64,000 nt of DNA from Metallosphaera tengchongensis (GTDB lineage: Archaea; Thermoproteota; Thermoprotei_A; Sulfolobales; Sulfolobaceae), in the NCBI RefSeq assembly GCF_013343295.1, contig NZ_CP049074.1, positions 186,001-250,000 on the forward strand. Direction: 5' to 3'. The position numbers were made by a program, and so were the translations under genes. Shown in pieces: positions 33,818 through 51,984 of this stretch. A model generated the notes under the pieces. The model did not search any database, had not been told where the DNA came from, and was given only the letters and a program-made list of their open reading frames with translations. How positions within the stretch are numbered: position 1 is the stretch's first letter; every line of letters begins with the position of its first letter.

Positions 33818-34915
33818 TCAGCCCAAGACCTCTTGAACTTCGGGTTTGTTCAGAATTTCTTGAAACGCCTTCTTCAAGTCCTCGGCGCTAAAGCCAAATA
33901 TGATGGGCTTGACCTCTAAAAAGGTAGAATCTATGATTTCATGAACCCTACTCGGGGTAACTCCTCTTAATCTGTCCTCTAAAGTCTCGAGGAAGCCCTT
34001 TGGTGACATTACGAAAAAGTCACCTGATATGGACACCTCGTCTATCTTGCCCTCAACAAACTTTGCTGTTATCCTAATCAGCTTCCTTGCCTTATAATCT
34101 AAATGGCAAACCGCTACAGAGGAAGATATCTTCACGCACCTCTCAGTCTTCAGCTCAGGATGCCTCCTATCCTTATAGTAGATCCACTCCTCATTTCTTT
34201 TCTCGCTAGCTAACTTTTCCCAGGTCTCTATTTCTTCAGGGGTAAGGGTAGACTCCTCAAACTTTATGTTTAAATGGCTTTCAAAACTCTCTTTCAATTT
34301 CTTATCTAATTCCTCCCTAGGAGGGACATAGCCAAGTTCCCTCTCCAATGACGTAATCCACTCGGACATGTCCTTAGCTATTTTGTCCCTAAATTTCTCG
34401 GACGGGACCTTAATGCACTTACTCATGAGCCGGGTGTCAGCTCTCATCAGGATATTTCCAGCTATTACCACAGCTTTCCCGTGGGTCATAGCTCCGTTTC
34501 CGCTGATCTTTTTACCGTTTACCACTATGTCCTGATCCCTTAGGGTAGCGTTAAGCCCATAATCCTTCAATACGTCAACAACTGGTGTCAGAAATCGCTC
34601 GTAAAGGGTCTTGGGATCTGAAGGAGCGTTCTCTCCCCTAACTACGATGAAGTAATCGTGCTCACCCTGGGTAATGACCACCGTACCACCACCCAGGTCA
34701 CGTCTGACTACTGGAATATTGTTCTTTAAAGTGTAATCCAAATCTACCTCTAGCCACACTTCTTGATGGACTCCAACATTTACGAAGGGTTCCTTAACTG
34801 AAAAAACTAGGAATGTGTCTTTTCCTCCCCTAGAGACGTACTCCGCAACTGACACAAAGGAAGTTACCATGTGATAACCGTCTTGGGGAGGGAGAGAAAC
34901 GAATCTCCAAGACAT
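33818..34915 (-). CDS. lplA: Lipoate--protein ligase, fused form
   Basis: The protein has 365 residues. The catalytic domain has VVRRDLGGGTVVITQGEHDY near residue 69 (RRxxGGG motif) and the lysine-bearing NGKKISGNGAMTHGKAVV near residue 130. The last hundred residues, with ITAKFVEGKIDEVSISGDFF, are the accessory C-terminal domain that in many archaea is a separate LplB. It activates lipoate with ATP and attaches it to a carrier lysine. The upstream gene, one base away, encodes a lipoyl carrier that is its likely substrate. Confidence 0.85.
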   Translation of the reverse strand: MSWRFVSLPPQDGYHMVTSFVSVAEYVSRGGKDTFLVFSVKEPFVNVGVHQEVWLEVDLDYTLKNNIPVVRRDLGGGTVVITQGEHDYFIVVRGENAPSDPKTLYERFLTPVVDVLKDYGLNATLRDQDIVVNGKKISGNGAMTHGKAVVIAGNILMRADTRLMSKCIKVPSEKFRDKIAKDMSEWITSLERELGYVPPREELDKKLKESFESHLNIKFEESTLTPEEIETWEKLASEKRNEEWIYYKDRRHPELKTERCVKISSSVAVCHLDYKARKLIRITAKFVEGKIDEVSISGDFFVMSPKGFLETLEDRLRGVTPSRVHEIIDSTFLEVKPIIFGFSAEDLKKAFQEILNKPEVQEVLG

Positions 34916-34916
34916 T

Positions 34917-35363
34917 TCAGAGCCTCTTACAGGAAAGCTTCTCTGAGGATATCAGTTCCTTTAGCTTCTGAACTGCTTGATTACCAGTCTGTAAGAGCTT
35001 TAACTCCTCAGGGTTAGCCACCTTCATCCTCACTAGCCAACCGTTCCCGTAGGGGTCTCTATTTACGAGTACGGGGCTCTTTTCAACCTCACCGTTTACA
35101 TCAATTATCTCACCAGAAACTGGAGCGGGTACTGGACCGGCCCACTTCCCGCTCTCCATGGTAGCAACAGGCTTGCCTCTCTCTACCTTAGTCCCCTTCT
35201 TCTTTATCCTCACTTTCACAACTTTTCCTGCCATAGTCTGGGCTAGATCAGTAATACCCACAAGGAGTGTATCGGGGGACTCTTGTTTAGCCCACACCGT
35301 ATTTTTCCCATCTATATAATAGAGAAGATTTTCAGGTATTTCACAATTGGATTCGACTACCAT
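34917..35363 (-). CDS. GcvH/LbpA-like lipoyl-carrier protein
   Basis: The protein has 148 residues with the lipoyl-domain fold of glycine-cleavage H protein. GITDLAQTMAGKVVKVRIKK near residue 36 is the N-terminal half. VATMESGKWAGPVPAPVSGE places the lipoylated lysine at K73. The ESGKW context differs from the ES(V/I)K-A-A/S of standard GcvH and resembles, as I recall, the lipoate-binding proteins of the sulfur-oxidising heterodisulfide-reductase-like system. It is coupled to a lipoate ligase one base downstream. No glycine-cleavage P or T genes are nearby. Confidence 0.8.
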   Translation of the reverse strand: MVVESNCEIPENLLYYIDGKNTVWAKQESPDTLLVGITDLAQTMAGKVVKVRIKKKGTKVERGKPVATMESGKWAGPVPAPVSGEIIDVNGEVEKSPVLVNRDPYGNGWLVRMKVANPEELKLLQTGNQAVQKLKELISSEKLSCKRL

Positions 35364-48107: not shown

Positions 48108-49091
48108 CTATATACTTTCCACCATCCTTACAGCCTTGTAGATCCCCACCCTCTTTGCCAGTTCTGCCATTGAACCCCTTACAAATTTCCCCATAAAATC
48201 CCCGAAATATTCGGAACCAATTCTCAACACTATCGCTACTTGTTTGTATTGGAACTTTTCCGATCCTCCCATGGCGTTACTCATGGCCAACTTCCCAGAC
48301 TGAACGGCAACTTGAGCTGACATGGGGACGAAACCCTTTGTAGTCATGGAGTCCCCAGCTCCAAAAACGTCCTCATGATCCACAGACATCAGATAGTCAT
48401 CCACGACCATTCTCCCGTTTTTGTTGGTTAACCCTAAGTCCTCAATCAGCTTAGGTCCTCTGAAACCCACAGCCATAATTGCCATTTCAGCTTTGAACTC
48501 TCCCTTAGTAGTGGTAAGAATACCTGCATTGAAACTTTCCACCTTGGTTCCTAAATGAACGTTAACCCCCATCTCCCTTAGTCTGCTTTCAGCAAACTGG
48601 GAAGACTCCTTAGTCATGAAGGAGAGTAGTCTCTCCTGAGCCTCAATGAGGTGAACCTCCTTTCCCATCCCCCTCAAAGCCCCAGCAAGTTCTACACCTA
48701 AGGTCCCTCCACCTAGTACTGCAACGCTCTTTATTTTAGGAAGCTTAGACCGAATTTCCAGAGCATCCTCTAAAGTCTCCAGCTTCTGAACGTTTCCCCT
48801 TATCTTGGTTGCATCCTGCTCATATCCTAAAGCGATGATTAATTTATCATACGAGTAAATACCGCTCGTGGTCTTCACTACCTTACTCTTAAAGTCTATT
48901 CCTACTACTTTGCTTCGGATCACTCCTCGTGGATATGGTATGGCAGCAAGGGATGGATTACCTGTTTCGATCACGTCCACCAACCTGTGCGTGAGAAGGA
49001 AATACTCTTTGGAGTCTATCACTACAGCTGACCTATTTTGATTTAAGGCAGACATCCCTGCAAATCCTCCACCTAAAATAACAGTCCTCAA
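48108..49091 (-). CDS. FAD-dependent pyridine-nucleotide oxidoreductase, NDH-2-like
   Basis: The protein has 327 residues. The first dinucleotide site is RTVILGGGFAGMSALN at the N-terminus. The second, SVAVLGGGTLGVELAGAL, lies near residue 132 and binds NAD(P)H. The flavin-ribityl segment DVFGAGDSMTTKGFVPMSAQ is near residue 242. The C-terminal helix region could bind the membrane. This is the NDH-2/apoptosis-inducing-factor group, also close to sulfide:quinone reductases, but the redox cysteines of SQR are absent. The start is a TTG with a TTAATTATAC box about 26 nt upstream. Confidence 0.78.
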   Translation of the reverse strand: MRTVILGGGFAGMSALNQNRSAVVIDSKEYFLLTHRLVDVIETGNPSLAAIPYPRGVIRSKVVGIDFKSKVVKTTSGIYSYDKLIIALGYEQDATKIRGNVQKLETLEDALEIRSKLPKIKSVAVLGGGTLGVELAGALRGMGKEVHLIEAQERLLSFMTKESSQFAESRLREMGVNVHLGTKVESFNAGILTTTKGEFKAEMAIMAVGFRGPKLIEDLGLTNKNGRMVVDDYLMSVDHEDVFGAGDSMTTKGFVPMSAQVAVQSGKLAMSNAMGGSEKFQYKQVAIVLRIGSEYFGDFMGKFVRGSMAELAKRVGIYKAVRMVESI

Positions 49092-49383: not shown

Positions 49384-50181
49384 TTGGAAATCCTCTTATC
49401 AGCAGGTACATACTATGCCATAGAAAGAGGGATTTACTATAGCCAAACAGCGTACGCATTGATGACTGGTGGTTGCCAGAACCAGTGCGGTTTTTGTTCC
49501 CAGTCCCTGAGTAACTCAGCTAGCAAGTTTTACCTTTCGCGGGTTAAGTGGTACCCAGTTGACCTGGAGAAGGTGAAAGGCAGGCTAAGCTCGTTCAAGA
49601 GATTCTGCCTACAGACTGTAGTAAGACCAGGATTTGAACATGAGATGTTAGAAATCCTTAAGCACGTGGACACCAAGAAGTCGGTCACAGTGGTTCCGAT
49701 TTCTAGGGAGTATTTAGTGGAGCTGAAACGAGTGGGAGTTGACTACCTAGGGATAGGGTTAGACACCACAGAGGGGAACTGGAATAAGGTGAAGAAACCT
49801 GCGACTTTTCACGAGTACTTTAGGTTCATAGAGGACGCTGTCCAAGTCTTTGGAAAGGGTAAGGTTTACGTTCACTTAGTCTACGGTCTTGGGGAAGAGG
49901 AGAGTGAATTCATCTCTCTCATGGAAACTCTTCATTCCGTGGGTGCAGAAGTAGCTCTCTTCGCGTTTACTCCTGTTAAGGGAACTCCCATGGAGAACGT
50001 TAAACCGCCAAAACTAGAAGATTATAGAAAAATACAAAAATTACGGTTCCTCATTTTCCACGGTAAAGATGGAGGAGAAAAGGCGTTCCTTACTTCAGGA
50101 TGCCCCTCATGTGATAGACCATTTTATAATGAAGACCCTAGAGGTAAGCCGTACAACGTTCCCCTGAGGTTTGTATCATGA
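49384..50181 (+). CDS. Radical-SAM protein, one subunit of the LipS1/LipS2-type lipoyl synthase
   Basis: The protein has 265 residues. The cluster cysteines are C31, C35 and C38 in GGCQNQCGFCSQS. A second cysteine group, TSGCPSCDRPF, near residue 238 could bind an auxiliary cluster from which sulfur is taken. Followed by a second radical-SAM gene and two lipoate-ligase genes in overlapping order, it fits the two-protein lipoyl synthase described for archaea such as Thermococcus. I do not assign which of LipS1 or LipS2 it is. The start is a TTG. Annotation pipelines would likely call it biotin-synthase-like. Confidence 0.78.
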   Translation: MEILLSAGTYYAIERGIYYSQTAYALMTGGCQNQCGFCSQSLSNSASKFYLSRVKWYPVDLEKVKGRLSSFKRFCLQTVVRPGFEHEMLEILKHVDTKKSVTVVPISREYLVELKRVGVDYLGIGLDTTEGNWNKVKKPATFHEYFRFIEDAVQVFGKGKVYVHLVYGLGEEESEFISLMETLHSVGAEVALFAFTPVKGTPMENVKPPKLEDYRKIQKLRFLIFHGKDGGEKAFLTSGCPSCDRPFYNEDPRGKPYNVPLRFVS

Positions 50182-51020
50182 TAGGAGGTTTCGTAACAAG
50201 GAGCAAGTTTACGACCTTGAGCATAACTGGCGGTTCGTGTTCACTTAACTGCTTCTACTGTGGGGCTAAGTACATTTCTACAATGGAGGAGGCGATTAGC
50301 CCTGAAAAATTTGAGAAGATAGTGACAAAGCTACACTCCAAAGGGGTGAGGGGCTTTTTGATCAGCGGGGGTTTCGATGAGTCGGGTAAACTTCCCATAA
50401 GACCTTTCCTACCTGTAATGAGGAAGTTAAGGAGAGAACTGAACGTTGTGTTCAACTTACATCCAGGTCTTCAGGATAAGGAAACCATAATGGAGTTAAG
50501 AGACGCAGTGGATATAGTGGATTTTGAGTTCGCCTACTCTCCTGGAGCATACTTGTCTAAGGGAGTTAAAAGGGAAAGGGACGCCTACGTAGAAGTCCTG
50601 AGTAACCTCATTGAATTTGGACCCGAGTATATTGTACCCCATGTAATGCTTGGACTTCCCAAGGACACTTACGAAGACCTTCTGGAGGAAATGAAAATTG
50701 CGTCCCAGTATAAGCCATACCTTCTAAATTTCCTTGTTGTAACACCTACTCCGGACACTCCATCAAGGGTCTTAAAGGTTGATCTAAACAAGATCTTACC
50801 ATTGATTCAAGAGGGGTCTAGAATGATGGGAGGAAAAGTGAGCCTAGGCTGTATGAGACCTTTCGCCTTAAAAGAAGTTCTAGACAGGGAAGTGGTTTCC
50901 AGAGGACTAGTGGAGAGGATTGCCAACCCACATCACAAGGTCGTAAAGGAGTTCAGTTTGCGACTATATGATGCATGTTGTAGCTTACCCGCTCACCTAC
51001 TGGGTGATTTCAAGATATGA
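50178..51020 (+). CDS. Radical-SAM protein, second subunit of the LipS1/LipS2-type lipoyl synthase
   Basis: The protein has 280 residues. The cluster motif is C21, C25, C28 in GGSCSLNCFYCGAK. LGLPKDTYEDLLEEM near residue 156, TPTPDTPS near residue 192 and SLGCMRPF near residue 220 follow. RLYDACCSLPAHLL at the end adds two cysteines that may hold an extra cluster. The ATG overlaps the previous stop. It would insert one of the two sulfurs into octanoyl chains bound to a carrier, its partner the other. Confidence 0.78.
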   Translation: MIGGFVTRSKFTTLSITGGSCSLNCFYCGAKYISTMEEAISPEKFEKIVTKLHSKGVRGFLISGGFDESGKLPIRPFLPVMRKLRRELNVVFNLHPGLQDKETIMELRDAVDIVDFEFAYSPGAYLSKGVKRERDAYVEVLSNLIEFGPEYIVPHVMLGLPKDTYEDLLEEMKIASQYKPYLLNFLVVTPTPDTPSRVLKVDLNKILPLIQEGSRMMGGKVSLGCMRPFALKEVLDREVVSRGLVERIANPHHKVVKEFSLRLYDACCSLPAHLLGDFKI

Positions 51021-51739
51021 GACTCATAATTGAGCAGGGGCACCCAGGGCAAAGGCAAATGGCCTTGGACGAGGCAGTCCTTATCTTACTTAGCCATGAC
51101 CTAGTGGAGGAGACGGTCAGGTTTTGGAACTTCTCCCCCACTACTCTTAGTATAGGGAGGTTCCTCAGTGTAAGGGATTGGGTGAATTTGGATCTACTTG
51201 AGAAATATAAGGTACCCTTAATCAGAAGGTTTACCGGAGGTGGACCAGCCCTTCATGACGAAAGGGGAGAAATAACATGGTCAGTGGCTTTAAGGACTGG
51301 GAGTGTGGAGTCGGCTTACCAACAGATAGGGGAGGCCCTGGTTCGCTCCCTTAAGATCATGGGGTTGGAAGGGATATTTACTCCAATAAATGATGTAGTT
51401 GTAAACGATAAGAAGGTTGTTGGTATGGCAGGAGCTCAGAGGCACAACGCTGTAATAGTCCACGGGACTTTCATGTTTAACACAAATTTGTCCCTAATGT
51501 CGCTCATCAAGGTACCAAAACCTAAGGAGATGGAGAGGGGAAGCGCCTCAGCTAGGGTTACTAACTTAAGCTCGTTGCTGGGAAGAGAAGTAAAGAGGGA
51601 GGAAGCACTAAACGCACTGATGAAGGGATTCTCGGAAGTCTTTCCCTTATCCCAAGGGGAGCTTACCACCTTGGAGCTAGAACTAGCTAGGCAATTAAGT
51701 TACAAGTACACCAATGACAAGTGGACCTTTTTAAGGTGA
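51017..51739 (+). CDS. lplA: Lipoate/octanoate--protein ligase, catalytic subunit LplA
   Basis: The protein has 240 residues, only the catalytic domain. RRFTGGGPALHDERGEITWS near residue 70 has the RRxxGGG-x-x-HD motif. NDKKVVGMAGAQRHNAV near residue 132 has the lysine and glycines that bind the acyl-AMP. The C-terminal accessory domain is absent and is supplied by the overlapping next gene. The ATG overlaps the stop of the second radical-SAM gene. It differs clearly from the fused ligase at 33818. Confidence 0.82.
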   Translation: MRLIIEQGHPGQRQMALDEAVLILLSHDLVEETVRFWNFSPTTLSIGRFLSVRDWVNLDLLEKYKVPLIRRFTGGGPALHDERGEITWSVALRTGSVESAYQQIGEALVRSLKIMGLEGIFTPINDVVVNDKKVVGMAGAQRHNAVIVHGTFMFNTNLSLMSLIKVPKPKEMERGSASARVTNLSSLLGREVKREEALNALMKGFSEVFPLSQGELTTLELELARQLSYKYTNDKWTFLR

Positions 51740-51984
51740 TTGGAGTGACTGAGATATGTGAGAAAGTATTTAGATCCAAGGCTGGCAAAACGGTGATTGT
51801 AAGGGTCTTCTTTACTCCTGGAGTAAAGGTCGAGGTTACGGGGGACTTCTTCGGGTCAGAAGAAGATTTAGAAGACCTTGAAAGGGATCTGGCCCAACTG
51901 AGATTGAGCGAGGTTAAGATACTCGGTTTAGATAATCAAGAGGTACTACAAAAGGTAAAGGAGTGCATTCTCAGTCATACATAG
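51721..51984 (+). CDS. lplB: Lipoate ligase accessory subunit LplB
   Basis: The protein has 87 residues, the separate C-terminal domain of a split lipoate ligase. FRSKAGKTVIVRVFFTPG near residue 18 and KVEVTGDFFGSEEDLEDLER resemble the last domain of fused LplA, including the VSISGDFF segment of the ligase at 33818. It overlaps lplA by 19 bases if the GTG at 51721 is used; later GTG codons are possible starts. The domain is needed for acyl-adenylate formation in Thermoplasma-type ligases. It overlaps the convergent EVE gene by 14 bases. Confidence 0.75.
   Translation: MDLFKVIGVTEICEKVFRSKAGKTVIVRVFFTPGVKVEVTGDFFGSEEDLEDLERDLAQLRLSEVKILGLDNQEVLQKVKECILSHT

Follow-up and report, generated by a model that had tools for sequence, protein, structure and literature searches.

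A lipS2-lipS1-lplA-lplB operon of Metallosphaera tengchongensis as a probable housekeeping lipoyl assembly system in a genome with a second LipS1/LipS2 set

Described lipoyl assembly systems and the layout of the operon

The LipS1/LipS2 pathway of lipoyl assembly has already been published (PMC9585515, PMC10332631). In T. kodakarensis the two proteins (TK2109, TK2248) are encoded by unlinked genes, and mutagenesis pointed to C230, C276 and C277 with H159 as ligands of LipS1, and to C85, C276 and C279 with H178 as ligands of LipS2 (PMC9585515). Other archaea carry lipS2-lplA-lplB-lipS1 clusters, which include a bipartite ligase (Tanabe et al. 2023, PMC10332631); since only assemblies in which LipS1 and LipS2 are both single-copy entered the LipS1/S2 trees of that study, genomes with two sets would lie outside them. 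The sLpl(AB)-LipS1/S2 systems of sulfur-oxidising bacteria follow the same reaction logic; they are tied to LbpA and have a fused ligase and often LipT. Radical-SAM genes have been reported both near and apart from hdr loci, and in Sulfolobaceae the genes are more widely dispersed (PMC6067878).

We analysed a stretch of 64,000 nucleotides (hereafter the window) from M. tengchongensis, a thermoacidophilic archaeon whose genome consists of 2.18 Mb in one contig. Positions 49384-51984 hold lipS2, lipS1, lplA and lplB, in this order on the + strand (Table 1). The sequence bore out the four-gene unit recognized in the first-pass annotation, overlaps included: the junction letters are atcATGAtag (lipS2/lipS1), gatATGAgac (lipS1/lplA) and aagGTGAttg (lplA/lplB), and the first two contain a 4-base ATGA stop/start overlap. 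The GTGA at the last junction is a third such overlap, with the lplA stop, only if lplB begins at GTG 51736. This is the most likely start, or else the codon at 51745; the start proposed earlier, GTG 51721, probably lies several codons upstream of the true one, because most Metallosphaera-type relatives begin at the equivalent of codon 11 of that ORF. The genes are the same four as in the clusters of PMC10332631, but their order is different and the genome adds a second LipS1/LipS2 set. In contrast to the unlinked genes of T. kodakarensis they overlap and are linked to ligase genes, and unlike the bacterial systems they encode a split ligase with no Hdr genes adjoining.

Among 31 Sulfolobaceae genomes, 18 possess a set of the window type, which we defined by a high-scoring LipS1. 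In all 18, lipS2, lipS1 and lplA lie close together, mostly in the order of the window, with rearrangements in G114, G090, G117 and the g6 genomes. This linkage, together with the E-values of LipS1 (1.4e-88), LipS2 (6.7e-75) and LplA (6.1e-53), argues that the operon assignment is not due to chance. A scan of the genome collection gave one named relative, Ca. Aramenus sulfurataquae, whose LipS1 is 62% identical. A gene for a pyridine-nucleotide flavoprotein adjoins the operon on the opposite strand (48108-49091). We considered its product as an electron donor similar to LipT and rejected it: the gene stands beside the operon in five relatives of the same genus and two of the Aramenus type, and in none of ten others, and hence is dispensable to the system.

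Table 1. Positions in the window of the operon genes, of putative cluster ligands and ligase motifs, and of a further ligase and carrier. Tk, T. kodakarensis.
Feature	Position	Strand	Remarks
LipS2	49384..50181	+	265 aa, TTG start; NF053743 E=6.7e-75, 252 bits, cut-off 270
LipS2 CX3CX2C (C31, C35, C38), SAM-cleaving cluster	49474..49497	+	sequence; invariant in 18 genomes
LipS2 C75, putative auxiliary-cluster ligand	49606..49608	+	equivalent of Tk C85
LipS2 H164	49873..49875	+	equivalent of Tk H178
LipS2 C240-P-S-C243, putative auxiliary-cluster ligands	50101..50112	+	equivalents of Tk C276/C279
LipS1	50178..51020	+	280 aa; NF053742 E=1.4e-88, 297 bits, cut-off 230
LipS1 CX3CX2C (C21, C25, C28)	50238..50261	+	sequence; invariant in 18 genomes
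LipS1 H155	50640..50642	+	equivalent of Tk H159
LipS1 C225	50850..50852	+	equivalent of Tk C230
LipS1 C267-C268 (DACC)	50976..50981	+	equivalents of Tk C276/C277
LplA, catalytic subunit of bipartite lipoate/octanoate:protein ligase	51017..51739	+	240 aa; PF21948 E=3.5e-36
LplA RRFTGGG motif (RRxxGGG)	51224..51244	+	sequence; conserved in 18 genomes
LplB, small accessory subunit	51736..51984	+	start probably GTG 51736 or 51745; hhalign, PF10437, relatives' starts
LplB GDFF motif	51841..51852	+	all 15 genomes with adjacent lplB
Fused LplAB, third ligase of the genome, outside the operon	33818..34915	-	365 aa; TIGR00545 E=3.5e-40; LplB domain E=4.6e-12
LbpA1, GcvH-like lipoate-binding protein, possible carrier	34917..35363	-	ESGK lysine site; PF01597 139 bits

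Identity and cluster ligands of the radical-SAM pair

LipS1 passed its curated NCBIfam cut-off, whereas LipS2 stayed below its own (Table 1). The LipS2 family was nonetheless the best match of the first protein, ahead by about 190 bits, and the second copy of LipS2 in the genome is likewise below the cut-off (240 bits). The score is lowered by a gap before CPSC. Between the His and this motif the window protein is roughly 30 residues shorter than LipS2 of T. kodakarensis. Because of its ligands, its linkage to the other genes and the margin in score we filed the protein as LipS2, clearly the best match by sequence, with the caveat of a score under the cut-off.

The residues of the pair were compared with those defined by mutagenesis in T. 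kodakarensis, equivalence being set by spacing and motif, without the T. kodakarensis sequences. Both window proteins contain the expected CX3CX2C motif together with the same auxiliary Cys/His sets; every one of their Cys has a counterpart in T. kodakarensis, and there is no further Cys. Moreover, LipS1 and LipS2 have exactly six Cys each in 18/18 genomes, and all six are invariant, as is the His. The Cys groups TSGCPSCDR and DACC had been suggested as auxiliary-cluster sites from the sequence, and these are indeed real, conserved and in agreement with the T. kodakarensis ligands, but that reading missed the third Cys (C75 in LipS2, C225 in LipS1) and the candidate His (H164 and H155, respectively). 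On the structural side, a search of the PDB for a sequence match to LipS1 found none, and the predicted model of LipS2 is poor near the cluster loops (pLDDT 62).

Could the pair instead be a biotin-synthase-like or cofactor-maturation pair that merely lies beside a ligase? BioB does turn up as a secondary hit of LipS2 (E=1.9e-16), as does a solved biotin synthase, 1r30 (E=1.8e-5). Each protein, however, scores far higher with its LipS family than with BioB, LipS2 by about 190 bits and LipS1 by about 280, and against a TIGR00433 cut-off of 225 the two reach only 60 and 14 bits; a maturase identity was likewise rejected on family scores and ligand residues. All LipS-specific ligands are conserved in the pair, and the window-type set is distributed in a fashion complementary to LipA (see below). 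We consider this alternative highly improbable. HMMs, ligand residues and tree agree in placing the two proteins in LipS1 and LipS2, as had been proposed, rather than in an unrelated family.

The split ligase

The third and fourth genes had been read as a catalytic-only ligase and its separate accessory domain, and both parts of this reading held, as did the motifs on which it was based (RRFTGGG in LplA and GDFF in LplB). The solved structure nearest to LplA is that of Thermoplasma acidophilum LplA (2ars, E=1.3e-26). The search with an LplB model gave a mixed outcome: the window protein alone scored 18.5 bits against an NCBIfam cut-off of 65, but a profile of 11 LplB sequences aligned with LplB domains, among them those in both fused LplAB proteins of the genome (hhalign probability 97, E=9.4e-11). 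In addition, PF10437 (Lip_prot_lig_C) was matched by 7 of the 11 relatives, at best with 1.4e-5. These sequence comparisons relate the window protein, though diverged, to the LplB / Lip_prot_lig_C domain; a fold comparison with a two-sequence AlphaFold model (pLDDT 80, pTM 0.66) yielded no significant match in the PDB.

An lplB gene with GDFF lies 3' of lplA in 15/18 genomes. Three g5 genomes (L181, L182, L183) carry lipS2-lipS1-lplA with no recognisable lplB beside lplA, and their ligase may be LipM-like. These three genomes would also fit an alternative in which lplA encodes an octanoyltransferase of the LipM type that uses octanoyl-CoA or a similar donor, with LplB vestigial or regulatory. 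A 2014 survey did list three Metallosphaera spp., A. hospitalis and S. tokodaii as LipM holders without LipA and/or E2 (PMC3904984), and ACP is generally missing in archaea, so that more than one acyl source is conceivable (PMC10332631). Against this, the conserved succession of lplA and a GDFF-bearing lplB in 15/18 genomes and the bipartite nature of the T. acidophilum ligase, the nearest solved relative, make such an octanoyltransferase an improbable reading of lplA. Since LplB can drop under standard HMM cut-offs, split ligases may be read as LipM. The operon also offers an explanation for the older puzzle in the same survey, namely the lipoyl transferase of Metallosphaera, S. tokodaii and A. 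hospitalis in the absence of LipA and/or an E2 acceptor.

By homology to the T. kodakarensis and bacterial systems, the reactions can be proposed as follows. LplA with LplB would use ATP to activate free octanoate, or lipoate that is salvaged, and would transfer the acyl group onto a carrier lysine, GcvH being the likeliest carrier. As in T. kodakarensis, LipS2 would then introduce the first sulfur, at C8, and LipS1 would presumably introduce the second, at C6, each protein sacrificing its auxiliary [4Fe-4S] cluster as the sulfur source.

A second set, the lipoyl carriers and the distribution in the family

A route through LipS1/LipS2 and LplA/LplB in replacement of LipA, as the first-pass annotation had it, fits the operon, and no classical lipA lies elsewhere: in the whole genome there was no TIGR00510 match at E<=0.001. 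That reading was incomplete, in that the genome encodes another LipS1/LipS2 set as well as two additional ligases. This second set is divergent (LipS1 208 bits, LipS2 240 bits) and consists of LipS2, LipS1 and a fused LplAB (L007 7415-10412, equal to C1:287.4-290.4 kb). A distance of about 8 kb separates it from clustered genes for Hdr-like proteins, TusA and DsrE, and it is this set, near Hdr-like genes, that is the counterpart of the bacterial sLpl(AB)-LipS1/S2 system. The third ligase, again a fused LplAB, is found within the window, next to LbpA1 (Table 1). This pair (33818-35363) is also present in G118, G119 and G126, and its role is not tied to the second set, because all three of these genomes lack it.

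Three carriers of the GCV_H type were found in the genome: GcvH, LbpA1 and LbpA2 (C1:294.6 kb). LbpA1 has an N- and a C-terminal Cys (C7 and C145), and two terminal Cys of this kind have been described for the LbpAs of sulfur oxidation (PMC6067878). gcvH is encoded together with gcvT and both P-protein genes. The sole other biotin/lipoyl domain found bears an EAMKSE site, typical of biotin carriers, which points to GcvH as the main non-sulfur carrier; the E2 of a 2-oxoacid dehydrogenase was considered as a carrier and rejected, no such lipoyl domain being found in the genome.

The distribution of the window-type set was complementary to that of LipA. Among the 31 genomes, 18 have the set, 12 have LipA, none has both and one has neither, an exclusion with p = 9e-8 by Fisher's exact test, a value to be read in the light of genomes that belong to one family and are related, not independent. 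The exception is G119 (79% complete), in which GcvH and LbpA1 are present and neither LipA nor either LipS set was found. By this distribution, the LipA clusters of Sulfolobus/Saccharolobus-type genomes (g3, g4) occupy the place of the window set, although they consist of one classical LipA between two LplA-like genes and contain no LipS1/LipS2. On a GcvT+GcvH tree of 30 of the 31 genomes, the label (window-type set or LipA) has to change 4 times, and if only branches with good support are counted, three switches are the minimum.

The second set followed a different pattern. Its LipS1 (type B) occurs in 27/27 genomes with the lower-scoring LbpA2 and in 0/4 without LbpA2. In the LipS1 tree, all type A sequences (the window type) fall into one clade (100/99). 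This clade is placed close to LipS1 from those other families of the order that have just one copy, and a very long branch parts it from type B. Twelve single-LipS1 genomes of other families were compared: every one encodes a single strong GcvH, nine show no additional GCV_H match, and in eleven there is only one ligase.

From homology and this co-occurrence we consider it very probable that the operon is a LipS1/LipS2 lipoyl assembly system in a housekeeping role, that is, a lipoyl synthase and ligase that would serve GcvH and perhaps other carriers. The four genomes without the second set keep LbpA1, three of them with LipA only, which is why the housekeeping system may also serve LbpA1. The second set, with its fused LplAB, would make the lipoyl groups of the sulfur-oxidation lipoate-binding proteins. 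A strict division of labour, with the operon for housekeeping and the second set for sulfur oxidation, is somewhat favoured by these data, and to the same slight degree we lean towards two insulated LipS1/LipS2 systems per cell, with exchange against LipA confined to the housekeeping system, in at least three switches within the family. Alternatively, both sets and the three ligases could be interchangeable and act on GcvH and both LbpAs. The GcvH fold and the conserved lysine are common to all three carriers, and in LipA-only genomes, if GcvH and LbpA1 are both lipoylated, a single synthase has to serve the two. Yet the occurrence of type B coincides exactly with that of LbpA2, LipA is the only thing with which type A is swapped, and the branch between the types is very long; PMC6067878 is also cited against interchangeability (E. 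coli and B. subtilis machineries). Free exchange among the sets therefore appears unlikely.

The proposed partition into two sets and the inferred swap with LipA are the new part, and look undescribed in the article texts searched; within that scope, no paper naming both LipS1 and Sulfolobales was found. If the housekeeping and sulfur-oxidation roles are separate, the family would represent a natural experiment, in which LipA and LipS1/LipS2 swap for one role while a paralogous LipS1/LipS2 is fixed for another. Genetically tractable hosts such as S. acidocaldarius would thus allow the substrate specificity of lipoyl synthases to be tested. Two mutually overlapping genes lie downstream of the second lipS2 (L007 5607-7413); one encodes a 275-aa protein that matches nothing in Pfam, the other a protein of the histone-deacetylase family.
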